A stretch of 48,188 nucleotides of DNA from a virus: positions 1-48,188 of the IMG/VR virus record IMGVR_UViG_3300000553_004736, one strand, 5' to 3'. The notes beneath the pieces are model-generated. The model made no database searches. It was not told the DNA's origin and saw nothing but the letters and a program-made list of their open reading frames with translations. The position numbers were made by a program, and so were the translations under genes. Below are positions 6,475 through 47,733 of this stretch, piece after piece (the stretch's first letter is position 1; each line of letters starts with the position of its first letter).

Positions 6475-6475
6475 G

Positions 6476-20626: not shown

Positions 20627-22557
20627 TTCTTGCCTCGCGCGATGTGAGCGTCTATCGAAGCCTGGTGAGCCTCGGCATACGCTTCGTGGACCGGCTTGGC
20701 CTGAGCCGAAGCCGACACCAGGGCATCCTTGTGAGCCGCCAAGGCTCGCTGGTGGGCACTGATCGCCCGCTGGTTGGATTCCTTGGTGTCGGTCTTCTTT
20801 GCCAAGTTGGACGCCCTTTGGGCAAGTCCACTGGCCTTCATGGCTGTCACGTAGGGGTGCTCCCCTGCGCCGCCGAATCCTCCGGTGTGGCCGTTCCCAT
20901 GCCAGTTCGTGTCCTGGGCCAGGGAGACGGCGTCGAGCATGAGCGTGTATGCCTTTGCGTCCTTCGCCCCCGCTTCCGCGCCGGCCTGTGCCCCTGCCGC
21001 AGATGCGCTGGAGGCGGTTGCAGACTTCGCAGCGGCAGCGGGATTCGGGGTCAGCTTGTTGGAGGCCACGCCCTTCGAAAGGTTATTCCAGCCGCTCTCA
21101 GGGTCGTTGATCAGGTTCTCCCGGATTTCCTCCGGAGAGACGGCCCCCAGCACATCGTAGATCTGGGCGCAGTCGGCATCGGCCTTGCGGATCAGCGACC
21201 GTTCCTTCTCAGTCATGGCCATCATGGGGGCGAAGTCGAAGGTGATGTCGTCGTCCATGTAGCCCAGCTCGGAAAGCTGGATGACCTTGATGATCACTTC
21301 GAGGGGACCGCGGAACAGGGCTTCCTGCAGGTCGCCGACGTAGTCATAGAAGGTGCGCACCTCGCCATCGTTGGACGCGTTCAGCCCGGTCGGGGTGATG
21401 CCAAGCAAGATGGAAAGCGGCGTCTTGGCGACCGCCGCCATGTGCTCCTGCGCCTGGGCCTGGAGCTTGTCAAGGCCCGCGAGGGAGGTGTCATGCTTCT
21501 CGAATTGCTCCTTGTTCTTGTCCAGGACCATGAGGCCCTGGCTGTCTCGCATCTGGACGAAGGCTTGAGCCCGGGCAATGAAGTTCTGACCGGATCCGCC
21601 AGAGAGCACGTCGTCCATGTTGGTGAGATAGACGCACGTCGAGAAGTTGCGCAGCAGGGCGCCCACGGAATCGCGGGTGTTCAGCCAATAGTCCACATAT
21701 GGCTGCGCGAGCTGGCTGAGGCTCATCCCGCTGAAGTTGTAGGCAGGCTTGAGCAGATCCGGCAGGGGCCGGGAAACGAAGGTCAGGAGACGGCTGGCGT
21801 GGACTTCTTGGCCGTAGACGAACCAGGAGCTGGGCACGTAGTAGTCCTGCTGAAGCGGCACGGACGCGTTGTATTGAGCCGGATACGTGGTGATGGGCTC
21901 GACCATCTTGAAGCCGCGGAGGCTGCCCTTCTGGATCTTGAAGGAGTTGAGCATCAGCGGGGTCTTCAGCTCCGGCCCCTCCGTGTCGCCGCAGTCGATG
22001 AAGATTTGGGCGCGGCCCATGAAGCCGTCCATGATCGCCGCCTGCCGGAACAGGTCACGCACCTTGAGCCGGCGCATGGCCCGCTCGATGACCTTGGTTT
22101 CCTCGGAGCGGTCCGTGCCGGAGACGGAGCGCAGTTTGATCCACTTGCGCACCATCTCGTAGGCGACGCGCTCGCTCATGTCCCGGTATTCGGTGATCTG
22201 GGTCAGTTCCGTCAGGTAGGGGAAGCCAGGGAAGCCCATGCCAGAGAAGAGGACCGCGCCCGTGCTTCCGCCCAGGGTGGTTGACCAGGCGGCGTCGCAG
22301 GCCAGGACGTGACGGGCCGGCGCCACGCCCGAGGGCGGGGTGTAGGGCTCGATCGGCAACTGCTCGCGCACCGGCATGCCGTGTTTGACCGCGGTGCGGG
22401 CTGCGCCCATCTCGTTCAGCCGCTGGGCGAAGACCTCGCCGATGTGGATGCGCTGCTTCTCCCGGCGCTCGGCAAGCTCCTTCTGCGCCTTGGCTTCAGC
22501 CTTGGCAGCTTCGACCTCCGGCGAGGGCTTGCGACGGAACCAGGAGAACCACCGCAT
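20623..22557 (-). CDS. Portal protein, DUF1073 family
   Basis: 644 residues. The portal core is seen in FPGFPYLTELTQITEYRDMS, ERVAYEMVRKWIKLRS, LRGFKMVEPITTYPAQYNAS, SSWFVYGQEVHASRLLTFVS and LSILLGITPTGLNASNDGEV, all typical of DUF1073 portals. The last 100 residues form an unusual Ala/His-rich helical tail (AISAHQRALAAHKDALVSAS, EAYAEAHQASIDAHIARG). The family is sometimes labelled anti-CBASS-like in databases because of a shared domain name; context (terminase, gpF, protease, capsid) shows this one is the portal. Confidence 0.88.
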   Translation of the reverse strand: MRWFSWFRRKPSPEVEAAKAEAKAQKELAERREKQRIHIGEVFAQRLNEMGAARTAVKHGMPVREQLPIEPYTPPSGVAPARHVLACDAAWSTTLGGSTGAVLFSGMGFPGFPYLTELTQITEYRDMSERVAYEMVRKWIKLRSVSGTDRSEETKVIERAMRRLKVRDLFRQAAIMDGFMGRAQIFIDCGDTEGPELKTPLMLNSFKIQKGSLRGFKMVEPITTYPAQYNASVPLQQDYYVPSSWFVYGQEVHASRLLTFVSRPLPDLLKPAYNFSGMSLSQLAQPYVDYWLNTRDSVGALLRNFSTCVYLTNMDDVLSGGSGQNFIARAQAFVQMRDSQGLMVLDKNKEQFEKHDTSLAGLDKLQAQAQEHMAAVAKTPLSILLGITPTGLNASNDGEVRTFYDYVGDLQEALFRGPLEVIIKVIQLSELGYMDDDITFDFAPMMAMTEKERSLIRKADADCAQIYDVLGAVSPEEIRENLINDPESGWNNLSKGVASNKLTPNPAAAAKSATASSASAAGAQAGAEAGAKDAKAYTLMLDAVSLAQDTNWHGNGHTGGFGGAGEHPYVTAMKASGLAQRASNLAKKTDTKESNQRAISAHQRALAAHKDALVSASAQAKPVHEAYAEAHQASIDAHIARGKK

Positions 22558-31235: not shown

Positions 31236-32188
31236 CACGCCACTCCTTGCAATTGTTGGGCTTCGGCCCACATGTCGTTCCAGTCACTATCGGGATTTGG
31301 GGGGATTTTGACCTCAACGTCGAACCCTTTGAGCCTGAGCAATCGGCCTTTCTCGTATGCCGCGCTCTGTCCCACATAGTTCCGATCGTTGTCACCGAAA
31401 ATGATCACGCTCTTTACGCCCTCGGGGGGAACCCATCCCAGGATTCCGTTCGCGCTGATCCCGGCCCAAACAGGCAGCCCAAAGAGCTTCGAGGCGCTGA
31501 TGCAGGTCTCGATGCCCTCACCGATTCCCAAACGCTCCTGGAGGGCTCCCAGGCGCACGGCGGCCCCTTCCAGCGGAAGGCCAGCCATGATCTTTCGCAC
31601 CGGATCCAGGTTCGCCTTGAAACCGTCCGCGGTGAGGTAGGTCCGGTGGACGCTAACCCCGTTTTTCTTGTCGTCCAGGCTCGGGCTGCGCATGATGGCC
31701 AGCATCGCCGGGTAGCAGTCCCGGGTGTCCGGGGCGTAGCGCAGGTTTGGGTGGTACCGGAGATCCTTGATGAATCCCGAGGGATCGCCGCAGCGCCGCT
31801 CCAGGTAGAGCCAGGCGGGATTGCCCGGGGTGACACGGTCGGCGCCCCCGAGCACCCGCTTGATACTGGCCGTCTTGTCCTCAGCGGAGCGCTTCTGCTT
31901 GACCACGTCGGCATGGACCACGCCCAGGATGGAATCGACTTCCTTGGCGGCCTTGCCGAATTCCCAGCCCTTCAGTTCCATGAGCAGGCGCATCCCGGTG
32001 CCGGCCCCGCACTGGGAGCAGTAGAAACTTCCGGTGCCCTCCTTGTTATCCCAACGGAATCTGTCTTCTCCCCCACATGTGGGACAGGGGCCGTGCTCAT
32101 CCTTCAGGAATTTTTCATCCATCCCGAACTTGATCAGGATTTCGCGCCACCGGCCCCGGGCGGCTTCGGTCGTTTTCTCCATGCTCAT
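31235..32188 (-). CDS. DNA primase (zinc ribbon + Toprim)
   Basis: 317 residues from the ATG at 32188, overlapping the helicase stop. The zinc ribbon is C35-P-T-C38 ... C57-S-Q-C60 (GPCPTCGGEDRFRWDNKEG, SFYCSQCGAG). The Toprim domain follows with GIGEGIETCISA (catalytic Glu) and VIIFGDNDRN (DxD). The order and length match P4 alpha/phage primases without a fused helicase; a separate helicase is encoded next. It makes primers for phage DNA replication. Confidence 0.88.
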   Translation of the reverse strand: MSMEKTTEAARGRWREILIKFGMDEKFLKDEHGPCPTCGGEDRFRWDNKEGTGSFYCSQCGAGTGMRLLMELKGWEFGKAAKEVDSILGVVHADVVKQKRSAEDKTASIKRVLGGADRVTPGNPAWLYLERRCGDPSGFIKDLRYHPNLRYAPDTRDCYPAMLAIMRSPSLDDKKNGVSVHRTYLTADGFKANLDPVRKIMAGLPLEGAAVRLGALQERLGIGEGIETCISASKLFGLPVWAGISANGILGWVPPEGVKSVIIFGDNDRNYVGQSAAYEKGRLLRLKGFDVEVKIPPNPDSDWNDMWAEAQQLQGVA

Positions 32189-33828
32189 GCGGCCACCTTC
32201 CGTTTGGCAGGGGAGTTTCCCCATGCCGTGTAGATGGACCGGATCTTATTCACCGTGTTCCGGTTCGGCTGAGTTTCGGGGGCCGTGGCGACGCTCATCC
32301 CCCGTGGCGGCCACTCGTTGGTGATCGCCTTATACAGGGCCATGACGCGCTTCTCACGCTTCTCTGGATCAGTGATGGAACTGGCGCGGACATAGGTTGC
32401 TACCTGGGAATACAGGTCAGTCTTGTCCTTGGCGATATGCTTCCCGTTCTCCAGGGTGATCTCGGTCATTTCTCCCGGCAGAGCCTCAACCAGGCTCTTC
32501 GGGTCGGGCTTGTAGCCGCACCTCACGCACTTGAGGCCCATGGGGGTATACCCGCACTTGGGGCACTTCTTCGGCTCCTTGATTTCGTCCTTGCGGATTT
32601 CCTTGTCCAAGCGTTCACCGTCGTTCAGCTTGTCCAGGCCCTCGTAGTAGATTTTCGAGAAGTCATCGGCAAAGCGGATGATGTTGCCGCTGAAGTCCAG
32701 GAGGTAGCAGTCCTTTTTGCCGGTTTCCTTGGAGGCGCGGAGGCCCCTGCCCCACATCTGGATCGCGGTGCTGAGGCTCTTCCTGAGGGGACGGCAGTCG
32801 CAGACGCACCCGATATCCTTCACGTCGAACCCTTTGGCTAAGGCCTCGACGCTGATCAAAACAAGGATATCGCCGTCTTGGAACCCTTGCAGGATCCGGG
32901 CCCGTTCGTCATCCTCGGTATCGGCGCAGAAGGTGGCCGCGGGGATACCCGCCTCGTTGAACTGGCGGCACATCTCCTCGCAGTGCAGGATCGTGGACCC
33001 AAACACGATGCTTTTCCGGCCCTCGGCATAGCGGGTCCATTCCTGGATCACATCTCCGACGATGACCAGTTCCCGCTCTGCCGCCGCGGCATCGGTCCAC
33101 TCACCGCCGGAAGTCTCGGCGCCGGCCATGTCGGGCTTCCGGCAACTGAAGATCCGCATGGGGACCAGAATCCCCTTCTTGGTCAGTTCGTCCATGGTGG
33201 CGGCGTTGACCAGTTTGTTGAACACCTTGCCCAGGCCAGGGCTGAACGGCGTTGCGGAAAGGCCGATGACAATAGCCTTGCATTTCGTGGATTTAATGTA
33301 ATCAACCCACGTTTTATACATCGCATGGGCTTCGTCAATGATGATCACGGCCATGTCCTGGGGCCAACCGCGACGCATGAGGGTCTGGCAACTGGCGATC
33401 TGGAAGGGCCGGGACAGATCGAACATGGGATTCTGGGCCTGGATGATGCCGTGGTATCCCAGACCAACCTCACGGGCAACGTCAGAGGTCTGGGAAATAA
33501 GGGTTTTACGGTCGGCCAGGAACATGGACCGGCTCCCCTTCTTGACGCCCTCGTTCACCACGTTGAGCGCCAGAATCGTTTTCCCGGCCCCGGTGGGAGC
33601 CATGACCAGAACCCGGCACAGGTCCTGATAGTCTTCCTCTTCTTCCCGTGTTTCTCGCGCTTCCCTTTCCTTGTCGGATTCCATCACCCGAACCGCTGCT
33701 TCCGCTTCCCGCTTCACCTTGCGGTCATGCTGGGCCTTCAATGATTCACGGACGGCCTCCCGAATTGCCTGATGGGCGGTGGCTTGGAAATCATGAAGGG
33801 CTGGGAATTCTCCTTGGAAGAGGCTCAT
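32185..33828 (-). CDS. DEAD/DEAH-box superfamily II helicase with zinc ribbon
   Basis: 547 residues. A helical N-terminal extension precedes Walker A APTGAGKT (77-84), DEAH (165-168) and GLSATPFSPGLGK. The second lobe shows SIVFGSTILHCEEMCRQFNE, LISVEALAKGFDVKDIGCVC and QMWGRGLRA (motif VI). A zinc ribbon, CPKCGYTPMGLKCVRCGY, lies near residue 430. It resembles UvsW/RecQ-type phage helicases associated with replication/recombination. Coupling to the primase gene suggests a replisome partner. Confidence 0.88.
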   Translation of the reverse strand: MSLFQGEFPALHDFQATAHQAIREAVRESLKAQHDRKVKREAEAAVRVMESDKEREARETREEEEDYQDLCRVLVMAPTGAGKTILALNVVNEGVKKGSRSMFLADRKTLISQTSDVAREVGLGYHGIIQAQNPMFDLSRPFQIASCQTLMRRGWPQDMAVIIIDEAHAMYKTWVDYIKSTKCKAIVIGLSATPFSPGLGKVFNKLVNAATMDELTKKGILVPMRIFSCRKPDMAGAETSGGEWTDAAAAERELVIVGDVIQEWTRYAEGRKSIVFGSTILHCEEMCRQFNEAGIPAATFCADTEDDERARILQGFQDGDILVLISVEALAKGFDVKDIGCVCDCRPLRKSLSTAIQMWGRGLRASKETGKKDCYLLDFSGNIIRFADDFSKIYYEGLDKLNDGERLDKEIRKDEIKEPKKCPKCGYTPMGLKCVRCGYKPDPKSLVEALPGEMTEITLENGKHIAKDKTDLYSQVATYVRASSITDPEKREKRVMALYKAITNEWPPRGMSVATAPETQPNRNTVNKIRSIYTAWGNSPAKRKVAA

Positions 33829-35531: not shown

Positions 35532-35908
35532 GCGAAGGCCTCCTCATCGAAGAGGGACAGCTGGACCCCGGCGCTCAGCAGCGGAGCAACAGGCAACGCC
35601 GCAGGAGCTGGAGGCACCGGCAGAGCCGGCGCTGTCGGCAAGGGCTCCCCATCCGCCCCGAATGGGAGCGGCCTGGAAGCGTCCTCCTGGCTCAGGCCAG
35701 CTTCGAGTCCCGCGAGGAAATCCCGCATCACCGGGCGTCCGTCGATGCGGTCCAGGGCGTCCAGGAAATGCTCGAAGGACAGGGCGCCCTGCTCAACCCG
35801 CCGGTCTCCCTTGATAGCCACACGGACCCAGCGAGCCTCTGAATCCGACCATGTTTGCTGGCCGCCCCAACCGCCGCGATATTGGAAGTCGAGAGTCTTG
35901 GCGGTCAT
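35528..35908 (-). CDS. Uncharacterised protein of the methyltransferase operon
   Basis: 126 residues from the ATG at 35908, overlapping the stop of the fusion gene. MTAKTLDFQYRGGWGGQQTW, SDSEARWVRVAIKGDRRVEQ, FEHFLDALDRIDGRPVMRDF and a Pro/Ala linker to QLSLFDEEAFA. The open frame continues upstream only as a shadow. The C-terminal QLSLFDEE resembles short linear motifs that bind the beta clamp (QxxLF-type), which is a tentative reading. Confidence 0.5.
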   Translation of the reverse strand: MTAKTLDFQYRGGWGGQQTWSDSEARWVRVAIKGDRRVEQGALSFEHFLDALDRIDGRPVMRDFLAGLEAGLSQEDASRPLPFGADGEPLPTAPALPVPPAPAALPVAPLLSAGVQLSLFDEEAFA

Positions 35909-38514
35909 GATGCCGCCTCTCCGTCCAACCCTTCCAGGTCGAACAGCGCGGGCATGTTCAGCTTGAATTCTTCGGCCTTGCAATAGTTCACGCCGTCGAG
36001 GAAATACTGGGGGTTCAGTTCCGAGGCCTGCCCGCGGCGCCCGAGCTTCATGGCCCGCACCGGAACGGTCATCAGGCCGCCGAACGGATCGTAGACCAGT
36101 TCCCCCTTGTTGGAGTAACGGGTGATCAGGCGGTCCACGATGTCGAACTGGAGCGGGCAGACATGGTTCGCAAGGCCCTTCTGGGTCTGGGAGCCGTTGA
36201 GCGTGAGCATCCGCTGGACGTCGTGCCACACGTCCGGGTGATGGCTGCCAGGCGCGATGCTCATGAAGGTGGCCGGCAGGCTCCCCCGGAAGTCCATGTC
36301 CTCACCGATGCGGATGTGGGCCTCATGGTCGTAGATCCGCTCAAGGGAAAACTGAGTGAACATGCTGGCGAGTTCCCCGGCGTCATAACCCTTCATCTCT
36401 TCGGATGTCAGCAGGCGGTTCCCCGAGCTGCGCCAGAAGGCGTGAGCGTCAACCTGCCACCGAGCCCGGCTGTAGCCTGTGCCAGGGAGCGGATGCAGGG
36501 TCCGATCGAAGTCAACGGCTTCTGGCACCTCTGCTTCCTCGAAAAGCATTTCCTGGCCCGCCTGGCACTGCGGCTTCTCCTTGGTCACCCGCACATCCGC
36601 GTAGCCCTTGCACCGGTCGGTCTGGGGCTTCCGGAACAGCAGGACGTATTCAGGCGAGCCGACGCCCATCTTGGTCGAATCCTTGCAGTTCTCGGACCAC
36701 CCGAGGCGGTAGGTCTGGTTGTTCTCCCGGACCACATCGGTAACCACGGTGATCATGCCCATGTAGTCGAAACCGTGTTTCAGACCATGGAACAGCGCCT
36801 CGGCATGGAAGGGGCTCACAGTCGGGGCCCCTGCCCCAGTCACGTTGCCGAACAGGATCCTGTCCTTGACGTGGCAGCAGTAGATCCGCCCCGGCTTGAG
36901 GATGCGCAGCAGTTCCGGGGTGAGGAAGTCCATCTGCGCCCAGAAATGCTCATTACCGGTCGTGTGCCCGAAATCGTTGAAACTGGGCGTGTATTCGTAG
37001 TGGTTCGAGAAGGGGATACTGGTGACGATGAGGTCACAGTGGTTCTCAGGCTGCAACCGCGCTTCCAAGACGCAGTCGTTATTCGCCACCTTGTAATGCG
37101 CCCCACTCTGCTCGATCCGCTCAACCCCGATGGTGCGGGCCAGGATCTGGTTGATGTCCATCTCGGCAAGGCCGTTGGCCTTGATGATCTCGCTCATGTT
37201 GTTCACCAGTTGGATGTGATCTGCCCATTTCTTTTTAAGAACGTCCACTACGTCGCGCTCTGCCTCGGAATAGATGATGTCGATCCGGCAGGAATACGGC
37301 TGGAGGAAGCGGAATATGCGGTGAATTGACTGGATGAAGTCATTAAATTTATAGCCAACACCAACGAAGATGGCCCGATGGCAGAACCGCTGGAAGTTGC
37401 AGCCGCTCCCGCTCAATTCCGGCTTGGACGCCAAGTATTTGAGTTCTCCATCCGAGAAGGCGATAACGCGCTGTTCCCGAATGTCCAGGTCCAAGCTGCC
37501 GTAGACCTCGCTGGCATCCGGGAGAGCTGACTTGATGGCCCGGCGTTCATCCTCCAGGTCATGCCAGAGCAGGAAATGGTCATCAGGGGAGGCTTCGATG
37601 ATGTCCATCATCTTGGCGACGCGGCCCTCCAGACTTTCCCGCTTGGCGATGGCCGCCTTCTGGAGTCCCATGGCGGAATTCTGGAAGAGGGGCACCTGGC
37701 CGTCCCGATCCGGGAGGACGTGGGTATGGTCCACCGGGACCTCATGCCAGACCACTTCCAGGGGCGGAAGGTCATAGCCTTCATCTGAATAGCCGATGTC
37801 GCTGGGCTTCTGGAGGAAGATGGCCCAGGAATGGAGCCAGAGCCAGAACTCCTTTTCGTGGTGAGGGTAGAGCGTGAGGTTCCCGGCCTGGCTCGAATCG
37901 CGCTGGAAAAACCGGGTGAGGCACTGGCCGGTGTCCATGATCCCGAGGAATCCGGCGTAGTGGATCAATTCCTTGTAACGGTTCGGGCTGGGCGTGGCCG
38001 TAGCGACGAACTTGAAGCGCACCTTCTTGAACAGGGTCAGGAACGACTGGTAGGTCAGGCTCCCGTAGCTCCGGAGAACCGAAGCCTCATCCAGGGAAAC
38101 GGCGGTGAACAGATCCACGTCCAGCTTGCCGTCCCGGATGCTCTCGTAGTTGGTCAGGTAGAATCCGGAGTCCTCAGGCGCCATCTCTTCGGCCCTGCGG
38201 ATGAATTTGTATTCCACCCCGACTTTGAGGCCGTCGCGCTTGAACTCCTGCCGGACGCCCAGGGGCACGACCACCAGGACAGGGCCGCCGGCATGGGCCT
38301 TGATGAGCCGCAGGGCCTCGGTTTCCATCAGGGTCTTGCCTAGGCCGAAGGCGGCGAAGATGGCCCGCCTGCCACCCTTGACGGCCCAGCGAACGATATC
38401 CCGCTGGTGTGGCTTGAGAATGGGCGAGATGTCTTCCAGGGCCACGTCGAAGCCGGTTGCCGGCGCAATGGTGATCTTGGCCCGGAGGAAGGTGAGATAG
38501 GGATCCTCGGTCAT
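35905..38514 (-). CDS. SNF2-like helicase fused to N4/N6 DNA methyltransferase
   Basis: 869 residues. N-terminal helicase: Q-like LKPHQRDIVRW (33-43), Walker A AAFGLGKT (54-61), motif II SLDEAS (140-145; DEAS rather than DEAH), motif III ATATP (171-175), motif VI-like QSIHRIFRF near 400. From about 480 a beta-class amino-methyltransferase follows: catalytic TSIPF (498-502, an atypical form of the S/D/N-P-P-Y/F motif), ILKPGRIYCCHVKDR, and motif I YDPFGGLMTVPVRAMKLGRRG near 800-820. Motif IV before motif I fits the beta order. It could remodel and methylate phage DNA; whether it guards against host restriction is inferred. Confidence 0.82.
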   Translation of the reverse strand: MTEDPYLTFLRAKITIAPATGFDVALEDISPILKPHQRDIVRWAVKGGRRAIFAAFGLGKTLMETEALRLIKAHAGGPVLVVVPLGVRQEFKRDGLKVGVEYKFIRRAEEMAPEDSGFYLTNYESIRDGKLDVDLFTAVSLDEASVLRSYGSLTYQSFLTLFKKVRFKFVATATPSPNRYKELIHYAGFLGIMDTGQCLTRFFQRDSSQAGNLTLYPHHEKEFWLWLHSWAIFLQKPSDIGYSDEGYDLPPLEVVWHEVPVDHTHVLPDRDGQVPLFQNSAMGLQKAAIAKRESLEGRVAKMMDIIEASPDDHFLLWHDLEDERRAIKSALPDASEVYGSLDLDIREQRVIAFSDGELKYLASKPELSGSGCNFQRFCHRAIFVGVGYKFNDFIQSIHRIFRFLQPYSCRIDIIYSEAERDVVDVLKKKWADHIQLVNNMSEIIKANGLAEMDINQILARTIGVERIEQSGAHYKVANNDCVLEARLQPENHCDLIVTSIPFSNHYEYTPSFNDFGHTTGNEHFWAQMDFLTPELLRILKPGRIYCCHVKDRILFGNVTGAGAPTVSPFHAEALFHGLKHGFDYMGMITVVTDVVRENNQTYRLGWSENCKDSTKMGVGSPEYVLLFRKPQTDRCKGYADVRVTKEKPQCQAGQEMLFEEAEVPEAVDFDRTLHPLPGTGYSRARWQVDAHAFWRSSGNRLLTSEEMKGYDAGELASMFTQFSLERIYDHEAHIRIGEDMDFRGSLPATFMSIAPGSHHPDVWHDVQRMLTLNGSQTQKGLANHVCPLQFDIVDRLITRYSNKGELVYDPFGGLMTVPVRAMKLGRRGQASELNPQYFLDGVNYCKAEEFKLNMPALFDLEGLDGEAAS

Positions 38515-40334
38515 GCCACCACCTCCTGGGGCATCCCGAAGGCCAGGGGGCGCTGCAGCACCACCGCCTTGATCAGCGCAGCGACCGTGTTGACCGGACA
38601 GGCGTTGCCGATCATGCGGACCTGGTTTGCCTTGGACAGCGGCTTTCCATCCTCATCCACGAACAGAAACCCTTCCGGGAATCCCATCGCTTTGGACAGC
38701 TCGTGGGGCTGGAGCATCCGCATGCCGATGTCCACCACGATGTAGGTCTCCCCGTCGATTTCCACGGTGATCAGGCCGAATTCATCCTTGGTGGTCACTG
38801 CGTGAAGGGGAGATTCCAGGCCCTGCCACTGGCCCCCGGTCGCATGATATTTGGTCAAAAATGACGCCACCAGGGCGTGGTGATTCCCCGTGGTGATGGT
38901 TGGAACAGGCTGATCGGCAGAGGTTGGGCCATGCCCGGAGGTGTTGGTCATGAGGTTGACCGCAACCAAGCCGTGATGATCCTGGCTGGTAACGGTTCCC
39001 ATCGGCGAATCCAGGGAGCTGCCAGGCGTCTGGTGACCGGCAGGGCCGCCGTAGTGTTTGGCCAGGAACGCCGCACAAAGTGCTGCATGCTCCCCGCCGG
39101 CAGAAATGGTGCGGACAGGTTCTTCCACGCTCATTGCCGTTCCGGCCAGCCCGCCCGGGCGAGTGCCCCGTAGAGAGATCATGCTGGCAGCGACGAGAGC
39201 ACCGTCGGCCTTAGCCGTGCAGGTCCCGAAGGGTTCATCCACGCCCCGGGGGCGGGACTGGCCGGCGCGCCCTCCGACTCCCACCAGGGACGGAATGATG
39301 ATGGCGCGGTCGCCTCCCTTGGGCTCCGCGGTGATGGTTTTCAGGGGTTCATCCAGCGATTCGTTCCTGCCACCGTGGGAGAGATTCAACAGGGACGGGA
39401 CCAAGAGAGCCTTTTCGCCCCGGTTTGCCGTGGTGATGGTCTTGAAGGGCTCGCCCAACTCCTCCAGGCGCCCGCCGTGGGTCAGGTTGACCAGGAATGG
39501 TTCCTGGGAGTCGAGCACGTAGCGCTGCACCCCTGCGGCGATCCTGCGGCAGGTTGCCGGTTTGAGGGGTCGCTTGCGATCGAAGATGCTGGGGCATGGA
39601 ATTGACCAGTCGATGCAGCCGGCGGCGGTCCTCCACAGGGGAAGGTGCCCGGTGAACATGTCCGCGCCCTTCTTGGGGTCTCGGTGGGTCGGATCCGCCC
39701 AGACGATGGGCAAGCCATCCTTGACCGCCTGCATGAAGAATCTGCGCCTGGTAGTCGGATCGCCGTAGTCCGCGGCACAGAGCACCCGATGCTCGCAGCG
39801 ATAGCCCAGGGCCTTCAAGTTCGCCAAGAACCGGCGGAAGAACTCGCCCTTGCGCTCAGGGATGGGCTTGTCGAAATGGCAAGCCTTGAGGCACTTGGCG
39901 CCACCAGGACAGCCCCCACTGTGCGTCGTATAGAGTGGACCCCAGTCGATGAATTCGGGGACATTCTCCATAAGGAGGACGCGCACATCGGCCATCTTGA
40001 GCCAGCGTTCGACCACCTCATCAGCGTGGCTCCGCTGCTGATCGTTCATCGGCTTGCCTCCCCTGGCCCGGGAATGATGAACACAGGATGGGGAAGCCCA
40101 CAGGAGGTCAGCCTTGGTCACACCGAAGGTCGCTGCGGTGACCTGGGTGATGTCCTCCTGGTAGCAATGAATCGTCGGGAAGTTCGCGCCATGGGTTGCA
40201 ACCGCGAGGTCCCAATGGTTCAGGGCCAGCGAGGTCCAGTCGCGGATATCGATGCCCAGGTCCTTGAACGCGAGTTCCTTGCCCGCGCTCTCGCCGCCCG
40301 CGCCACAGAAAAGGCTTACGGTGGTGGGCTTCAT
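38511..40334 (-). CDS. dcm: DNA (cytosine-5) methyltransferase with repeat-built target region
   Basis: 607 residues. Motif I LFCGAGGES (8-16), motif IV ASPSCVHHSRA with catalytic Cys 84 (SPSC variant of PPCQ), motif VI MENVPEF, motif VIII-like TTRRRFF, then a target recognition region, motif IX-like LQPHELSKAMGFPEGF and motif X GNACPV. The target region (about 290-520) holds seven repeats of roughly 30-40 residues with a shared core such as LDEPLKTITA ... HALVASFL. The pattern of repeated EP-x2-TIT blocks is rare. It probably shields phage DNA; target sequence unknown. Confidence 0.88.
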   Translation of the reverse strand: MKPTTVSLFCGAGGESAGKELAFKDLGIDIRDWTSLALNHWDLAVATHGANFPTIHCYQEDITQVTAATFGVTKADLLWASPSCVHHSRARGGKPMNDQQRSHADEVVERWLKMADVRVLLMENVPEFIDWGPLYTTHSGGCPGGAKCLKACHFDKPIPERKGEFFRRFLANLKALGYRCEHRVLCAADYGDPTTRRRFFMQAVKDGLPIVWADPTHRDPKKGADMFTGHLPLWRTAAGCIDWSIPCPSIFDRKRPLKPATCRRIAAGVQRYVLDSQEPFLVNLTHGGRLEELGEPFKTITTANRGEKALLVPSLLNLSHGGRNESLDEPLKTITAEPKGGDRAIIIPSLVGVGGRAGQSRPRGVDEPFGTCTAKADGALVAASMISLRGTRPGGLAGTAMSVEEPVRTISAGGEHAALCAAFLAKHYGGPAGHQTPGSSLDSPMGTVTSQDHHGLVAVNLMTNTSGHGPTSADQPVPTITTGNHHALVASFLTKYHATGGQWQGLESPLHAVTTKDEFGLITVEIDGETYIVVDIGMRMLQPHELSKAMGFPEGFLFVDEDGKPLSKANQVRMIGNACPVNTVAALIKAVVLQRPLAFGMPQEVVA

Positions 40335-40669: not shown

Positions 40670-40971
40670 GCCGCACCCGCCATCTTCCGCCGCGTGAAGA
40701 TCCGCCGGCAGTTGCAGGCCCTGGACACGTCCTCAAGGTGAGCAGGGTTCCAGCAGCTCCGGATGGTGCAGGTGTGGTCAATCTCTTTGCCCCGGCGCAG
40801 CTTGCCGTTGAACAGGGCGAAGGACGCCTGATGAACCCGAATGGTCTTGCCCTGGAAGTGGACTTTCCCGTAGCCGTCCTTGTCCCAGCAGCCGGTGTAG
40901 ATCCAGCAGCCGGTGTTGGGCTCGTAGTAGGTCATCGCCTCCAAGCGGGAGAGGGTTGCGGAATCGCTCAT
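40666..40971 (-). CDS. HNH endonuclease
   Basis: 101 residues: YYEPNTGCWIYTGCWDKDGY, GKVHFQGKTIRVHQASFALF, GKEIDHTCTIRSCWNPAHLE, ACNCRRIFTRRKMAG. The DH and WNPAHLE stand for the HNH residues; Cys pairs bind zinc. It is one of three related HNH proteins in the window, here without extra domain. Probably a homing-type enzyme; the neighbouring genes remain intact. Confidence 0.8.
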   Translation of the reverse strand: MSDSATLSRLEAMTYYEPNTGCWIYTGCWDKDGYGKVHFQGKTIRVHQASFALFNGKLRRGKEIDHTCTIRSCWNPAHLEDVSRACNCRRIFTRRKMAGAA

Positions 40972-41711
40972 GCCGCCAACCGCCTTCCCAGGCGTTCCAA
41001 CTTCTCCTGGACCTTGGCATCAACCAGATCGGCCCCGAAGATCAGCCGCATCTGCCCGCACATGATGGTCATGTCGGCAATCTCGCCGGCCACGTCCTCA
41101 TTGGTGCAGCGGCAGCGGCGATGGTGCTGAAGGGCCTGGATCAGTTCGGCGGCTTCCTCAACGGCCATGTCGATCTGGGTGGTGTGGCCCCACTTCGCCA
41201 GTGCGGTGCGGAAAATCCCTTCGTGCGGGTCGAGAGGGGTCACGTTTCTTTTCCCTTTCGAGTAGCCACGCTCCCGCGCATTGGCGCAGATGCGGCAACT
41301 ACGGTTCGGGCGGCAATTTTCCGGAGTAAGGAGGTGCCCCCTTTTGCAGGTTTTGCGCATCCCTGTTGCGCTGCTCCGGTGGACATTCTCGGTTCTTGAA
41401 ACGGCCTCAAGATGATCTGGATTCACGCACTTGGTGTTTTTGCAGAGATGGTCGATTTGAAATCCATCGGGAATAATCCCTTTGAACTTCCTGTAAGAAA
41501 GACGATGGGCAGCGTATTGCTGCTTATCAAGGAACATGCGGCCATACCCGTTGGGCGCAATAGTAGAGGTCCATTCCCAGCACCCGTTAGGACCACTCCG
41601 GTCAACGTGGGAAAGGAATCGGTCCGTCTGCTTGATGTCCATCTCTGGAACAGGCTTCCCGTTTCGGATTCGAGCCTTGACGGCAGTGACACTTTCGCTG
41701 ATATCATTCAT
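40968..41711 (-). CDS. HNH endonuclease fused to MazG-like pyrophosphohydrolase
   Basis: 247 residues with AGGAGG before the ATG. Residues about 30-160 are an HNH protein: GCWEWTSTIAPNGYGRMFLD, AHRLSYRKFKGIIPDGFQID, HLCKNTKCVNPDHLEAVSRT, then the Cys/His tail (CKRGHLLTPENCRPNRSCRI). From about 165 a MazG-like part follows: HEGIFRTALAKWGHTTQIDM, AVEEAAELIQALQHHRRCRC, EDVAGEIADMTIMCGQMRLI with E-E-x2-E ... E-x2-D residues of the NTP pyrophosphatase. An internal GTG near residue 160 could give MazG alone. It is a genuine continuous frame. Confidence 0.8.
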   Translation of the reverse strand: MNDISESVTAVKARIRNGKPVPEMDIKQTDRFLSHVDRSGPNGCWEWTSTIAPNGYGRMFLDKQQYAAHRLSYRKFKGIIPDGFQIDHLCKNTKCVNPDHLEAVSRTENVHRSSATGMRKTCKRGHLLTPENCRPNRSCRICANARERGYSKGKRNVTPLDPHEGIFRTALAKWGHTTQIDMAVEEAAELIQALQHHRRCRCTNEDVAGEIADMTIMCGQMRLIFGADLVDAKVQEKLERLGRRLAA

Positions 41712-41739
41712 ATGGCGATCCTCCTGAGATCGTTGAAGT

Positions 41740-42045
41740 TCAGGCCACCTGTGATGAGGTGGCCTTTTCGTTGAGGGACTTGATCAGATCGAGGGCACGG
41801 CGGATGCTCTGCATCGCCTTCCCCGCGCCATGGCGGCCCAGCAGCGCACCGTCAGCGCACCGCAGATCGGTCATCACGTCCGGGATGCAGGACGCATCCC
41901 GGTAGGCCAGGTGGTCAATGCAGCGCCGAAGTGCCTGCCGGCCTTCACGAACGCTGTCCTGGTCGATGTGCGAACCCCAGAGGGAGGATTCAGCCGCGAA
42001 CAGCTCACGGATGATGGCGTGGATGGTTTCCCGTTCCTCATTCAT
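41740..42045 (-). CDS. Uncharacterised helical protein
   Basis: 101 residues from the ATG at 42045, one base overlapping the stop of a 25-residue gene. MNEERETIHAIIRELFAAES, then EGRQALRRCIDHLAYRDASC and GKAMQSIRRALDLIKSLNEK. All-helical with no motif I recognise. The end of this gene is separated by a gap of 28 bases from the HNH-MazG gene. Confidence 0.55.
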   Translation of the reverse strand: MNEERETIHAIIRELFAAESSLWGSHIDQDSVREGRQALRRCIDHLAYRDASCIPDVMTDLRCADGALLGRHGAGKAMQSIRRALDLIKSLNEKATSSQVA

Positions 42046-42843: not shown

Positions 42844-42872
42844 ATTTTGTAGTCTGCCTACAGAGTTGTCAA
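42844..42872 (-). promoter_or_regulatory. Early leftward promoter with operator in the spacer
   Basis: On the minus strand TTGACA (42872-42867), a 17-base spacer and CAAAAT (42849-42844). The spacer and -10 overlap the near-perfect palindrome TGTAGGCAGACTACA (42862-42848), six of seven arm positions matched. The first transcribed base should fall at the ATG of the Cro-like gene (42836). Same arrangement as 43475-43503. Confidence 0.75.
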
Positions 42873-42882
42873 GAGAATCATT

Positions 42883-42911
42883 TTGACCCCAGCTCAATTT
42901 GTTCTGACACT
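42883..42911 (+). promoter_or_regulatory. Candidate maintenance promoter of the repressor
   Basis: TTGACC (42883-42888), 17 bases, GACACT (42906-42911). The predicted start would lie at the ATG at 42918, without a ribosome site, which suggests a leaderless message as for lambda PRM. The -10 is poor, so activation by the repressor or another protein may be needed. Confidence 0.45.
42891..42909 (-). repeat. Conserved box TGTCAGAACAAATT (left copy)
   Basis: Read leftward, TGTCAGAACAAATT-GAG lies upstream of the -35 of the leftward promoter. The right control region has TGTCCGAACAAATTTG at 43439-43457 in the corresponding place. The conservation outside the operator suggests a second binding protein or a shared UP-like element. 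Confidence 0.6.
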
Positions 42912-42917
42912 ACGAAA

Positions 42918-43319
42918 ATGGAAGACCGGTGGCCACAGCGAGAGAGATTCTGCGAACTACTGGATCAGTGGATTGCCGACGGCAACGGAACCACGGCGGA
43001 GTTCGCCTACCAGGTCAAAAAATCAGTCGCCATGATCTACTCCCTGAGGTCCAGGCCCACCTCCTTGCCGACCGTTGAACTCGTCGTGGACATTGCCCGG
43101 GTGCTGCGCTGCCGGATCACGGAGCTGATCACCGATCCAGGCGCGACCATCGCCGGCCAGGACGTAACGGGCTTGACAGGGAAAGAGCAGGTCCTGGCCG
43201 AAATCATCTTCCAGAAATACCGAGACCCAGAATTTGATGAGGCCGACCGTCAGCAACTCTTTGAAGACTTCATTCGGGACTACGACCGGCTCAAGGCAAT
43301 GAAGGCCAGGCACAAATGA
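42918..43319 (+). CDS. CI-like phage repressor
   Basis: 133 residues: MEDRWPQRERFCELLDQWIA, then an XRE-type HTH (TTAEFAYQVKKSVAMIYSLR, LPTVELVVDIARVLRCRITE). The C-terminal half is helical (VLAEIIFQKYRDPEFDEADR, DFIRDYDRLKAMKARHK) and has no S24 protease residues or Ala-Gly cleavage site, so it is not the self-cleaving LexA type. It lies between the two operators TGTAGTC-N-GACTACA and is divergent from the Cro-like gene. It should maintain lysogeny. Confidence 0.75.
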   Translation: MEDRWPQRERFCELLDQWIADGNGTTAEFAYQVKKSVAMIYSLRSRPTSLPTVELVVDIARVLRCRITELITDPGATIAGQDVTGLTGKEQVLAEIIFQKYRDPEFDEADRQQLFEDFIRDYDRLKAMKARHK

Positions 43320-43412
43320 CAGTGGCTTTGTGTTCAAGAGTTCAATAGCCCAAGAGATCGAGAAGATCACAGGAACCCATATTTCATAACCAGTCCAGCA
43401 CCAAAATGGCCG

Positions 43413-43436
43413 AGCCCCGATCCGTCGGGGCTTTGT
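43413..43436 (+). terminator. Intrinsic terminator after the repressor gene
   Basis: AGCCCCGA, TCCG loop and TCGGGGCT form an eight-base-pair stem, followed by TTTGT. It ends the rightward repressor message and lies just before the right operator/promoter block. The short U-tract makes it moderately convincing. Confidence 0.65.
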
Positions 43437-43438
43437 CA

Positions 43439-43457
43439 TGTCCGAACAAATTTGCTC
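43439..43457 (+). repeat. Conserved box TGTCCGAACAAATTTG (right copy)
   Basis: Located 17 bases upstream of the right -35. It matches the left box at 42891-42909 in opposite orientation. Confidence 0.6.
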
Positions 43458-43474
43458 AAACTGAAAATATTTTG

Positions 43475-43503
43475 TTGACACCTCTGTAGTCAGACTACAA
43501 ACT
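43475..43503 (+). promoter_or_regulatory. Early rightward promoter with operator in the spacer
   Basis: TTGACA (43475-43480), 17-base spacer, CAAACT (43498-43503). The perfect palindrome TGTAGTCAGACTACA (43485-43499) fills the spacer and overlaps the -10. It drives the + strand operon and is an inverted copy of the leftward promoter block. Confidence 0.78.
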
Positions 43504-43799
43504 AAGCCCCAGAGAGCAAACCCGATCATTCTCAGCCACAGAACGATTCACGAAATCGAAAACCCAGTTTCAGGACTGGGCGGTAATGCCAGGTCCCCTG
43601 CTCTCAAGGGGTCAACGGCCCGGGAATGAGTTTCCGGCACGCCTGGATCAAGACGCCGAACCGACCTCCGAATGGACATCCACGCGCTAGGGCAGTGGAT
43701 GAGCTGGGACAGTTGCCAGCCTCGGAGAACCTATGACGGTGATGAGCAACAGCGGGCCTCTCATGGCTCGCTGGTGAACCTCACCCAAAGGAGATCAGG
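43504..43799 (+). other. Untranslated leader of the rightward operon
   Basis: About 300 bases between promoter and the first gene contain no convincing ORF. Visible structure includes CCCAGTTTCAGGACTGGG, GTCCCCTGCTCTCAAGGGGTC and a GGTGA-ACC-TCACC hairpin directly before the AAAGGAGATCAGG ribosome site. It could hold an antitermination or attenuation element. Confidence 0.4.
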
Positions 43800-44078
43800 A
43801 TGAACGCTCATACCCCAGGAACATGGGAAGCTCGCTTCCCTATCTCTGGTCAGCCCATCGTATTCAGCCCTGATGCCCCTAACGGGATCGTCTGCCGGCC
43901 CAGCACCCGCGAGGATGCAACGCTGATCGCCGCCGCACCGGAACTCTTAGCCCTAGCCAAGGAGCTGGATTCTCACTCGGCCCACGCTATCGGGTTCGAC
44001 CTCGACAAGCTGCCCGCGCTCATGGATCGGTTCCGTGCAATGGCCATTGCCGCCATCGCCAAGGCCGAAGGGCGCTAG
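43800..44078 (+). CDS. Small conserved phage protein, first gene of the rightward operon
   Basis: 92 residues with AAAGGAGATC upstream: MNAHTPGTWEARFPISGQPI, VFSPDAPNGIVCRPSTREDA, TLIAAAPELLALAKELDSHS. The HTPG-x-W-E start and the DA-x-LIAAAPELL helix are a common pair in small phage proteins of unknown function located in early regions. No catalytic motif is visible. Confidence 0.65.
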   Translation: MNAHTPGTWEARFPISGQPIVFSPDAPNGIVCRPSTREDATLIAAAPELLALAKELDSHSAHAIGFDLDKLPALMDRFRAMAIAAIAKAEGR

Positions 44079-44177
44079 ACCATCGCGATGACTGCCGCGG
44101 ACCCGGGACAACAAGAGGGGCCACCTTTCTAGCGATTGACGGTCCCTCGGGACGCCGGATGACGTAACCGGCACCCC

Positions 44178-44253
44178 GGGCCCATAGCTCAGCCGGGAGA
44201 GCGCCTGGTTTGCATCCAGGGGGTCGCAGGTTCGAACCCTGTTGGGTCCACCA
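44178..44253 (+). tRNA. tRNA-Ala (anticodon UGC)
   Basis: 76 bases. Acceptor GGGCCCA/TGGGTCC, D arm GCTC...GAGC, anticodon stem CCTGG/CCAGG with loop TTTGCAT (anticodon TGC), T arm GCAGG-TTCGAAC-CCTGT, discriminator A and encoded CCA. The G3-U70 pair that identifies alanine tRNAs is present. Loop position 38 is T where C is usual. It is inside a gene-free, hairpin-rich stretch. Confidence 0.95.
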
Positions 44254-44532
44254 ATCAAGTCCGGGTCCGCGTCTGCGGAAGGTGTCACCTCCACCTAGCC
44301 GCCTGGGCTTGAAGCCCCCTTGAGTGGGGGCGCCTATCACGCCTTCGGGCCAGCACCGCTTAACTCGTGGGGAGATGCGCGGATAGCTGGTTCGATTGAA
44401 TCCTGAAGCCCGGTGAAAGCCGGGAACGCTCCAGGACAACCCACCAGGAACGGACGGTCTATCCGTCGATTCCCGCCGAGAGGCGAGGACAGAGAAAGAA
44501 CCTGGTGGCCCCATCTGAATCACCTTCAAACC
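44254..44532 (+). ncRNA. Structured gene-free region downstream of the tRNA; candidate non-coding RNA
   Basis: No convincing gene. Hairpins: GCCCCC-TTGAGT-GGGGGC (44314-44331); CCCGG-TGAAAG-CCGGG (44409-44424) closed by CCTG/CAGG; and a three-way junction with P1 CCACCAGG (44441-44448)/CCTGGTGG (44501-44508) enclosing GACGG-TCTAT-CCGTC and a CGCC-GAGA-GGCG stem extended by TCC/GGA around a bulged A. The GAGA is a GNRA-type tetraloop. I recognise no known RNA family. Limits are arbitrary. Confidence 0.5.
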
Positions 44533-44553
44533 GCCCGGGGAACCGGGCCTTTT
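44533..44553 (+). terminator. Candidate intrinsic terminator
   Basis: GCCCGG, GGAA loop and CCGGGC form a six-base-pair stem followed by CTTTT. It would end the tRNA/structured RNA transcript. If active, genes from 44834 need antitermination or their own promoter. Confidence 0.55.
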
Positions 44554-44833
44554 GGGTATCCGGCAGGGCGCAACCGGTGAATTCCGGAAGCCGCGCCCCT
44601 TGAATAGAGCCCGCCGCAGCGCGGGATTGTCTATGGCCCACTGGCGAGCCCAATTCGCCTGCATGTTGGGAGGTGATCTTTGCGCTTGAATGCCTAAACA
44701 GCGTGGTCCTGAAGCGGACGGCCCCGTCCCTGCTCCCATTGCCCGGGCCGTCCCGTTCAGCACCATCCAACCAACCCCGCCAAAAAGCATAGCCCATAGG
44801 GCGAGCCGAAGGCATATCTACAAGGAGACCCCC
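44554..44833 (+). other. Gene-free interval with hairpins before the next gene
   Basis: Contains CCCGC-CGCAGC-GCGGG, GGCGA-GCCCAAT-TCGCC, the sequence GGAGGTGATC (perfect complement of the 16S rRNA 3' end) at about 44671, and the long hairpin at 44711-44760. A frame continuous with the next gene is open from an ATG at 44690, but its spacing to the ribosome site is too long and its residues look non-natural. Confidence 0.4.
44711..44760 (+). repeat. Long hairpin, copy A (CTGAA-GGACGGCCC ... GGGCCGTCC-TTCAG)
   Basis: Arms GGACGGCCC (44716-44724) and GGGCCGTCC (44745-44753) pair perfectly, with an outer CTGAA/TTCAG stem across a two-base internal loop. A related hairpin is at 45284-45330. It lies upstream of the 89-residue gene. 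Confidence 0.65.
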
Positions 44834-45103
44834 ATGGGTCAGGCAAAACGTCGCGGCACCTTTGAACAGCGGCTCGCCACCGCAACCCCGAAGCCGGCGA
44901 CGGTCCACTCCCACAAGCCGAAGCTCGACATGAGCCCCGAGGCCGTCAACTGGCGCTACGGGCAGAGCACCCGCAACCACTGCCCCGGCGTCGAACACCG
45001 CGTCCGCGGCGCGATCTACCGGGTGAGCCGCTCCGGCGCCTGGTTGCGCATGACGCCCCGCGATACGAAGGCGAACCGCCGCGCTGCCGCCCTGGCCGCG
45101 TAG
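44834..45103 (+). CDS. Small conserved phage protein (MGQAKRRGTFEQR type)
   Basis: 89 residues with AAGGAG before ATG 44834. The start MGQAKRRGTFEQRLATATPK is a widespread N terminus of small basic phage/bacterial proteins with unknown function. The rest is PKLDMSPEAVNWRYGQSTRN, HCPGVEHRVRGAIYRVSRSG and a basic tail. Highly basic, possibly nucleic-acid binding. Confidence 0.65.
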   Translation: MGQAKRRGTFEQRLATATPKPATVHSHKPKLDMSPEAVNWRYGQSTRNHCPGVEHRVRGAIYRVSRSGAWLRMTPRDTKANRRAAALAA

Positions 45104-45106
45104 AAG

Positions 45107-45238
45107 ATGATTCCCATCCATTCACTCCTCCAGCCCATCGTCATGGGCGAACGGTGGCCCAGCAGCGCCGTTGGGGACTCTCCCGATCTGACCGCTGAGG
45201 CGGTCCAAGATCCCCGCTTCAAGATCGATTTGCGGTGA
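45107..45238 (+). CDS. Small unknown protein
   Basis: 43 residues: MIPIHSLLQPIVMGERWPSS, AVGDSPDLTAEAVQDPRFKI, DLR. It begins three bases after the stop of the previous gene with a weak ribosome site. Protein-like composition but no support beyond the reading frame and spacing. Confidence 0.4.
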   Translation: MIPIHSLLQPIVMGERWPSSAVGDSPDLTAEAVQDPRFKIDLR

Positions 45239-45283
45239 GGGCACCGTCCTGCCCTCCGGATCGCTTTGCGAACTGCTGACTCT

Positions 45284-45330
45284 GAAGTGAACGGCCCTCG
45301 CCCCTCAACGGCGCGGGCCGTTCCATTGAG
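45284..45330 (+). repeat. Long hairpin, copy B (GAACGGCCC ... GGGCCGTTC)
   Basis: Arms GAACGGCCC (45289-45297) and GGGCCGTTC (45315-45323) pair perfectly. Relative to copy A, G17-C52 is replaced by A90-T322, a compensatory change. Outer CTGAA/TTGAG is one mismatch away from pairing. It precedes the 28-residue gene. Confidence 0.65.
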
Positions 45331-45355
45331 CGTCAACCAGACCATGGAGAACGCC

Positions 45356-45442
45356 ATGCGAAAGATCGTTCGGTTCCGCCCGCCCCGGCGGATTCCGCCG
45401 CCGCCACCCATCATCCCTTCCCCCATCAAGGAGGCTGCATGA
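45356..45442 (+). CDS. 28-residue Pro/Arg-rich microprotein
   Basis: MRKIVRFRPPRRIPPPPPII followed by PSPIKEAA. GGAG lies six bases upstream and the stop overlaps the next ATG as ATGA. The Arg/Pro composition recalls translation-inhibiting or nucleic-acid-binding peptides, but that is speculation. It may also serve to couple translation of the next gene. Confidence 0.45.
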   Translation: MRKIVRFRPPRRIPPPPPIIPSPIKEAA

Positions 45443-45750
45443 AGATCAATGGGATCACCATCAAGTTCGGTATCGACACATCCGACTACGGAGCATCGGG
45501 GCCGGCGGGCTATTACCTCTCGGTCTTCGCCGTGCTGGACACGCAATACGGCTGGGCTCACAAGGTGCCGCTCCCCGAAGTGCCCCCCCAGCTGCTCGCC
45601 ATGGACCTGGAAACCTTCCTCTCGGACCCCTGGGTTGAGCCCCTTGTCCAGGAGGCGGTCGCCAACCTGCTCCCGCACCTGGATGCCCAGGTCGTTACCC
45701 TCACCGCCGCCATCGCCGGGATCCGGGCTGAGTTGCCCGCCGCGTCATGA
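45439..45750 (+). CDS. Uncharacterised protein
   Basis: 103 residues with AAGGAGG upstream: MKINGITIKFGIDTSDYGAS, GYYLSVFAVLDTQYGWAHKV and MDLETFLSDPWVEPLVQEAV. Beta-strand start and helical end. It lies in the early recombination operon. No family recognised. Confidence 0.6.
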   Translation: MKINGITIKFGIDTSDYGASGPAGYYLSVFAVLDTQYGWAHKVPLPEVPPQLLAMDLETFLSDPWVEPLVQEAVANLLPHLDAQVVTLTAAIAGIRAELPAAS

Positions 45751-46048: not shown

Positions 46049-46289
46049 CCGGCTCGACACTGCCGGCCAGCCTCACACCTCGAATCACCGGGACGGCCAC
46101 AAGGTAGGCCTGTTCTCGGATGGCTGGTGGGCCTACCACCGGGACTACAAATACACCCCACCGCGGCGGCCTACCATCGGCCCAAGGCCGGTGGGCCCGT
46201 TCAACACCCTCACGGACGCGAAGCACTTCGTCGAGGCCCAGGGTTGGGCCTCGACATTTCCCTTTTCCGAACAGGAGCAAACCGCATGA
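46032..46289 (+). CDS. Small unknown protein, GTG start
   Basis: 85 residues from GTG 46032: MSAWVDRLDTAGQPHTSNHR, DGHKVGLFSDGWWAYHRDYK, GPFNTLTDAKHFVEAQGWAS. The F-N-T-L-x-D-A-K-x-F-V-E pattern is often seen in small proteins accompanying recombination genes. Its stop overlaps the ERF start. Function unknown. Confidence 0.58.
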   Translation: MSAWVDRLDTAGQPHTSNHRDGHKVGLFSDGWWAYHRDYKYTPPRRPTIGPRPVGPFNTLTDAKHFVEAQGWASTFPFSEQEQTA

Positions 46290-47065
46290 GCGAACCTGAA
46301 ATTGACGGCAGCAGCGCCCCCGAGCTGGAGCAGATCCCGCAGCGGCTAAACGTGCGCCCGCCGCAGACCGCCTCCATCATCCCCACGAACCCCGCCGAAA
46401 TGCTCTACCTGGCCATGTCCCAGGGCAAGGGGATGGAGGACCTGGAGAAGTTCATGGACCTCAAGGATCGCTGGGAGGCCGGCGAGGCCCGCAAGGCGTT
46501 CGTGGCCGCCATGTCCCGGTTCAAGGCCAACGACATCCACGTCAGCAAGGACAAGGACAACCTGCAATACAAGAGCCGCTACACCACGCTGGGGAATCTG
46601 GTGGGCACGGTGACGCCCTTCCTCAGCCAGAACGGCCTTTCCGCCAAGTGGGACATCCAGCAGGAGGCGCAGAAGATCCGCGTTATCTGCGTCATCACGC
46701 ACTCCCTGGGGCACTCCGAACAGGTGACCATGGAGGCCCCTCCCGATGCTTCCGGCGCCAAGAACCCCATCCAGATGATCAAGTCCACGATCACCTACCT
46801 GAAGGCTTGCACCTTCGAGTCCATCTGCGGCCTCGCATCGACCGAAGCCAACCTGGACGACGACGGCAACGGTGCCAACGGAATCCCGGCGCATCAGGCC
46901 GATGTGGACCGGATCAAAGCCGCCAAGACCCTCAAGGAATGCCAGGAAATCTACACAGAGGCCTACCGCAAGGCCTCTGCCGCCAATGACAAGAAGGCCA
47001 TGGACGCACTCCTGAAAGCCAAGGATGAGCGCAAGGCCGAACTCCAGAAGGGAAGTGGGAAATGA
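46286..47065 (+). CDS. erf: ERF-family ssDNA annealing protein
   Basis: 259 residues. The ERF core appears at MEDLEKFMDLKDRWEAGEAR, KAFVAAMSRFKANDIHVSKD, YKSRYTTLGNLVGTVTPFLS, QNGLSAKWDIQQEAQKIRVI and KSTITYLKACTFESICGLAS. The C-terminal part is helical. ERF proteins anneal single strands in phage recombination and pair with an exonuclease; YqaJ follows with a 4-base overlap. The start overlaps the previous stop by ATGA. Confidence 0.9.
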   Translation: MSEPEIDGSSAPELEQIPQRLNVRPPQTASIIPTNPAEMLYLAMSQGKGMEDLEKFMDLKDRWEAGEARKAFVAAMSRFKANDIHVSKDKDNLQYKSRYTTLGNLVGTVTPFLSQNGLSAKWDIQQEAQKIRVICVITHSLGHSEQVTMEAPPDASGAKNPIQMIKSTITYLKACTFESICGLASTEANLDDDGNGANGIPAHQADVDRIKAAKTLKECQEIYTEAYRKASAANDKKAMDALLKAKDERKAELQKGSGK

Positions 47066-47733
47066 TGAAGATCATCGAATGCACCCAGGGCAGCGCCGAA
47101 TGGAAGGCCGCCCGCGCCGGCAGGGTCACCGCTTCCAAGGTCAAGGACATCCTGGCCAAGGGGAAGGGCGGCGCCGATTCGGCCTCCCGCGCCAACTACC
47201 GCCACCAGATCGTCTGCGAAATGCTCTCCGGTGAGCCGCAGGATGATCCGATCTACGGCGCCGCCATCGCCTGGGGAGTCGAGCAGGAGAAGTTCGCCCG
47301 GGCCGCCTACGAGGTGGAGACGGGTTCCATGGTCGATCAAGTGGGCATGGTGATCCATCCCAAGTCCGACCGCTGCGCAGCCTCTCCGGACGGCATCGTG
47401 GACTGGGACGGCCAGGGAATCCCCGAGGGCTTGGTGGAAATCAAGTGCCCCCTGACCAAGACGCACATCGCCTACATCCTGGCCGGCGGGGTTCCCTCCG
47501 ACTACGAGCCGCAGATGGTGTGGCAAATGGCTTGCACCGGGGCCAAGTGGGTCGATTTCGTCTCCTTCGACCCGCGGCTCAAGGGCAAGGCGGAAGGACT
47601 GCAGCTCTACATCTGCCGCCTGGAGCGCAACGAAACCCGCATCCAGGAGGTTGAGCGCGAGGTGGAGAAGTTCCTGGACGAAGCCGACTGCCTCTATGCC
47701 TCCATCCTCAAGATCACCGAACAGGCGGCGTGA
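47062..47733 (+). CDS. YqaJ/lambda-type exonuclease
   Basis: 223 residues: MMKIIECTQGSAEWKAARAG, RVTASKVKDILA, then CAASPDGIVDWDGQGIPEGL, VEIKCPLTKTHIAYILAGGV and QMVWQMACTGAKWVDFVSFD. D-G-x-V-D and E-I-K-C are the metal-binding catalytic residues of the YqaJ family. It produces ssDNA for the ERF annealase. The stop overlaps the next start as TGATG. Confidence 0.92.
   Translation: MMKIIECTQGSAEWKAARAGRVTASKVKDILAKGKGGADSASRANYRHQIVCEMLSGEPQDDPIYGAAIAWGVEQEKFARAAYEVETGSMVDQVGMVIHPKSDRCAASPDGIVDWDGQGIPEGLVEIKCPLTKTHIAYILAGGVPSDYEPQMVWQMACTGAKWVDFVSFDPRLKGKAEGLQLYICRLERNETRIQEVEREVEKFLDEADCLYASILKITEQAA

Follow-up and report, generated by a model that had tools for sequence, protein, structure and literature searches.

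The IMG/VR virus record IMGVR_UViG_3300000553_004736 is a 48,188-base window (the term is used here for the whole stretch of DNA that was analyzed) from an uncultured phage, and it carries a phage gene set including portal, terminase, primase, helicases, methyltransferases, and Erf- and RecE-like recombination genes. Most of the genes in the window are oriented leftwards. In an 869-residue protein (35905–38514, minus strand), most of the length matches a DNA helicase family and the region toward the C-terminus matches methyltransferase families; it is encoded beside a 607-residue DNA methyltransferase (38511–40334) and another helicase (32185–33828). The HNH endonuclease gene at 40968–41711 (minus strand) is an apparent fusion, with the C-terminal part of its product matching nucleoside triphosphate pyrophosphohydrolases (phrog_2245).

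Toward the right end there are two divergent early promoters, in each of which a TTGACA hexamer precedes an exact or near copy of the palindrome TGTAGTCxGACTACA. The promoter/operator pair forms a 38-base inverted repeat with 84% complementarity between 42846–42883 (the leftward copy) and 43464–43501; a second inverted pair is present in the same region (42896–42916 and 43432–43452). The leftward promoter (TTGACA-17-CAAAAT) was found by a promoter scan, and its transcript enters the first gene almost without a leader. An HTH-like frame that is repressor-like by inspection only lies between the two promoters, and the whole arrangement is a putative lambda-like immunity region.

Rightward transcription from the putative promoter P_R (Table 1) would pass through a leader of ~300 nt, a gene coding for 92 residues, the segment at 44079–44833 that is the subject of this analysis, the gene at 44834 and small genes, with the Erf (46286–47065) and RecE (47062–47733) genes at the far end of the proposed transcript. 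The leader is moderately structured, and the folding window at 43501 has an ensemble base-pair distance of 25.9, the ninth lowest among the 642 phage windows described below. The product of the gene at 44834 has an N-terminus that is conserved in other phages.

Table 1. Features of the proposed rightward early operon and of the structured segment downstream of the tRNA.
Feature	Coordinates	Strand	Support
Putative early rightward promoter P_R, TTGACA (43475–43480), overlapping palindromic operator TGTAGTCAGACTACA (43485–43499)	43475–43503	+	putative function
Leader of rightward transcript, ~300 nt, non-coding	43504–43799	+	no coding signal; fold z −2.4
First gene of rightward operon, 92 aa	43800–44078	+	coding score positive; phrog_1273 (unknown function), PHROGs E 1.7e-6
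tRNA-Ala(UGC), encoded CCA	44178–44253	+	ARAGORN; Rfam RF00005, 64.8 bits
Domain 1, three-way junction with 12-bp closing stem	44255–44312	+	pair probability 0.93–0.95 isolated; closing stem 0.48–0.95 with flanks
Hairpin 2, GCCCCC/GGGGGC	44314–44331	+	pair probability 0.94–1.00 in all contexts
Hairpin 3, 19 pairs, interrupted	44345–44395	+	pair probability 0.97 in all contexts
Hairpin 4, GAAA tetraloop	44401–44436	+	pair probability 0.87–0.93
Domain 5, three-way junction with GAGA tetraloop arm	44441–44508	+	in MFE; pair probability 0.97–0.99 isolated; closing stem 0.55–0.76 with tRNA
Terminator-like hairpin GCCCGG-GGAA-CCGGGC (44533–44548) then CTTTT, putative 3′ end	44533–44553	+	weak U-tract
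Gene after the gene-free segment, 89 aa (MGQAKRRG...)	44834–45103	+	strong ribosome-binding site; coding score 0.40

With codon statistics derived from the genes of this phage, no coding signal is seen in any of the six frames of 44079–44833 and the flanking genes score clearly positive, in agreement with the original prediction that this segment holds no convincing gene. Together with 43320–43799 it is one of the two longest non-coding stretches of the phage, and the longest runs lacking coding signal in the window are 44208–44832 and 43272–43872. Translations of its open reading frames, long antisense frames included, have no match in Pfam or PHROGs, and the sole trace of a family is a run of 18 residues belonging to the real gene at 44834. 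With neither a coding signal nor a match to a Pfam or PHROGs family, a hidden protein gene was rejected. Both ARAGORN and Rfam report a single tRNA in the segment, the embedded tRNA-Ala that had been recognized from the letters. At 44668–44678 (plus strand) the sequence GGGAGGTGATC is an almost perfect complement of the 3′ end of 16S rRNA; the only frames downstream of it are one of three codons (TTG AAT GCC TAA) or an extension of the next gene on its 5′ side, which is weakly coding.

Predicted structure is not spread across the 755 bases but is concentrated in ~300 nt of the plus strand at 44254–44550 (referred to here as the block). The earlier description of the entire segment as hairpin-rich thus holds for the part that follows the tRNA but not for 44560–44833, which shows no folding beyond chance level (z = −1.1) apart from a hairpin at 44704–44765. 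For the 307 nt after the tRNA (44254–44560) the predicted energy is −141.5 kcal/mol (z = −3.8, with 0 of 100 shuffles equally stable) and the minimum free energy (MFE) structure equals the centroid. The ensemble mean base-pair distance is 17.2, compared with 72.8 ± 24.0 in dinucleotide shuffles (minimum 21.8; 0 of 200 as low), and it is at this location that the lowest value is found among 642 equally long windows from both phage strands (16.6 for a window offset by 3 bases). Three GNRA tetraloops are present, a count reached by one of 200 shuffles, and across the 642 phage windows this is the only place with three in the MFE structure. The G+C content of the block is 0.622, compared with 0.620 for the phage. 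The minus strand has no GNRA tetraloops, and these loops are thus restricted to the strand of the tRNA and the operon. The fold is a prediction from one sequence by energy alone, and its statistics carry some selection bias because the region was picked out for its hairpins in the first place.

Two three-way junctions and several further hairpins make up the predicted fold (Table 1). The junction at 44441–44508, with its GNRA-type loop, had been described previously and is recovered in the MFE structure; the second lies just after the CCA of the tRNA. The inner hairpins retain pair probabilities of ~0.9 in four longer contexts, and their robustness to flanking sequence counts in favor of a real RNA. 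The closing stems of both junctions are context-sensitive (0.48–0.99) because alternative pairings with the tRNA and its leader compete with them, which counts against it. Since the full-length MFE structure pairs the tRNA 5′ leader (about 44096–44108) with domain 1, a switch between the two was considered; of 500 shuffles of the leader, however, 267 pair with domain 1 equally well, and such a switch is therefore not claimed. The last helix coincides with the terminator that had been proposed at 44533 and is terminator-like, a further point in favor, although the weak U-tract detracts from this.

Comparison by cmscan with all 4,227 Rfam families, using gathering thresholds as well as permissive filters and E-values up to 10, reported only the tRNA, the remaining matches being at chance level. 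GOLLD, ROOL, introns of described types and the other listed RNAs are therefore unsupported. A divergent GOLLD or ROOL member was one of two identities offered by the original prediction, and this covariance-model check speaks against it; the other, a structured RNA of an undescribed kind next to a tRNA, is consistent with the evidence. GOLLD and ROOL are multi-helix non-coding RNAs of phages or prophages and are often encoded beside tRNA genes (PMC12286853), and the setting is similar here, in a phage record with an adjoining tRNA-Ala and several junctions. However, many GOLLD members are longer than 800 nt (PMC12286853), and the block differs in being only ~300 nt, in matching no Rfam model and in having no homologues that we could find. 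We consider it very improbable that this is a divergent GOLLD, ROOL or other described large phage RNA, an identity that is already largely refuted.

Relatives were sought in several ways. Blastn against 50,697 phage and 72,556 plasmid records returned the tRNA or chance pieces only, exact motifs in IMG/VR viral contigs gave zero matches or unrelated sequence, and synteny followed through the portal, Erf and flanking small proteins identified no matching element in related phages. The phages related through their portal genes share structural genes, with identity reaching 75% across a 13.7-kb fragment and 59% in larger ones; these records, several of them fragmentary, have no tRNA on the contigs read and no matching element, and because many are fragments this absence is weak evidence. 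Candidate host genomes were searched at the DNA level or with a single-sequence covariance model (first 291 and later 201 genomes from one phylum, centered on an Armatimonadota MAG; 385 of one class, centered on Bradyrhizobium; and 199 of another phylum, centered on an Elusimicrobia MAG) and contain no convincing homologue. Two weak covariance-model matches have E-values of 0.003–0.008 per genome over hundreds of genomes and no adjoining tRNA, and were taken as chance; one further genome match is antisense and inside an open reading frame. An internal relation of the block to the leftward operon was also sought and not found.

With no homologue there is also no covariation, which counts against the RNA interpretation, and the lack of detectable conservation or of relatives that might show selection speaks for the alternative that the segment contains no functional RNA at all. 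It would then be spacer, tRNA trailer or decayed genes, with hairpins that are incidental or that act at the DNA level as a replication, recombination or packaging site. Also in its favor, energy alone prefers neither strand of the block (−141.5 and −141.6 kcal/mol) and several windows over phage genes equal or beat it in z-score. Against it are the base-pair distance and the tetraloop count, which stand out from the phage's own windows and do so most on the plus strand, and the absence of protein-family traces from the frames. We regard the lack of any functional RNA as unlikely. Fold z-scores of −4.2 to −5.1 occur in windows overlapping reading frames at 20701–20900 (plus strand, antisense to the portal gene), 6301–6500 (minus strand) and 41701–41900 (minus strand).

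A different function is suggested by the position of the block. In lambda, nutR is a control element located between the first P_R gene and the terminator tR1. The block likewise follows the first P_R gene and directly precedes a terminator-like hairpin, beyond which lie Erf- and RecE-type genes on the same strand. The parallel in position with nutR/putR and tR1 makes it a serious rival reading that the block controls the early rightward operon in cis. The nascent RNA would bind polymerase, or be bound by factors, and enable passage through the hairpin at 44533 and downstream terminators, in the manner of nutR or the HK022 putR site. HK022 putR is a two-stem-loop RNA lying ~270 nt from its P_R start (PMC9378689), and resembles the block in being a structured RNA within an early transcript, downstream of P_R. 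The differences are that put sites are ~70 nt with a left and a right copy, whereas the block is ~300 nt and, with the leftward transcript having almost no leader, lacks a second, left copy of the nutL/putL kind. The likeness to nutR-tR1 is one of position; the block is much larger and more branched, and a boxA/boxB-type element was not identified in it. We located putL and putR in NC_002166 by their mutual similarity and aligned and modeled them; the model recovers both HK022 sites (E about 1e-20) but has no match in 43320–45450, so identity with HK022 put was rejected, noting that the poor base pairs of the model make this mainly a test of sequence. Overall we find a cis-acting element somewhat unlikely.

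The block at 44254–44550 makes a good candidate for a new phage RNA, as yet unproven and represented by a single sequence, because it is non-coding, has an unusually good predicted fold, matches no known family and has no relative that we could find. The best reading is probably that of a structured phage RNA, an orphan, transcribed together with tRNA-Ala(UGC). The analysis shows the gene absence, the tRNA, the unusual quality of the predicted fold and the position among genes; that the RNA is transcribed, processed, stable and active in trans is inferred from these. Rightward transcription would start at P_R (about 43475) or at some unrecognized promoter and yield a precursor of which the block RNA is the 3′ part and which also holds the tRNA. 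As domain 1 starts just after the CCA, and in effect abuts it, maturation of the tRNA 3′ end would expose the 5′ end of the RNA directly upstream of this domain. The hairpin at 44533–44553 would set the 3′ end, with part of the polymerases continuing into the recombination genes, and the compact product, with its two junctions, further hairpins and three GNRA loops, would be a stable RNA. That the block is a real structured, tRNA-linked non-coding RNA whose compact product acts in trans is a tentative proposal, to which we would give slightly less than an even chance.

It is doubtful, although well within reason, that the block is the founding member of an undescribed class of compact (~300 nt) phage RNAs, in which a tRNA trailer freed by processing either acts in trans during infection or serves as a new protein-free antiterminator. 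Structured phage RNAs of the GOLLD/ROOL type are known and their functions are not understood, and such a class, if real, would be a simpler system (one tRNA, a defined operon position and a terminator) for asking why phages keep RNAs beside tRNAs. Alternatively, it would be a second example of RNA-only antitermination.

Two similar intergenic hairpins of the form CTGAAGYGRACGGCCC...GGGCCGTYCCRTTSAGC are present in the same operon, at 44704–44765 and 45277–45335 (plus strand), ~570 bases apart. No other close copies occur in the window, and the two differ by one compensatory G-C to A-T change in the stem; the copy at 45277–45335 sits in a window with a fold z-score of −4.2. These are possibly processing or regulatory hairpins.
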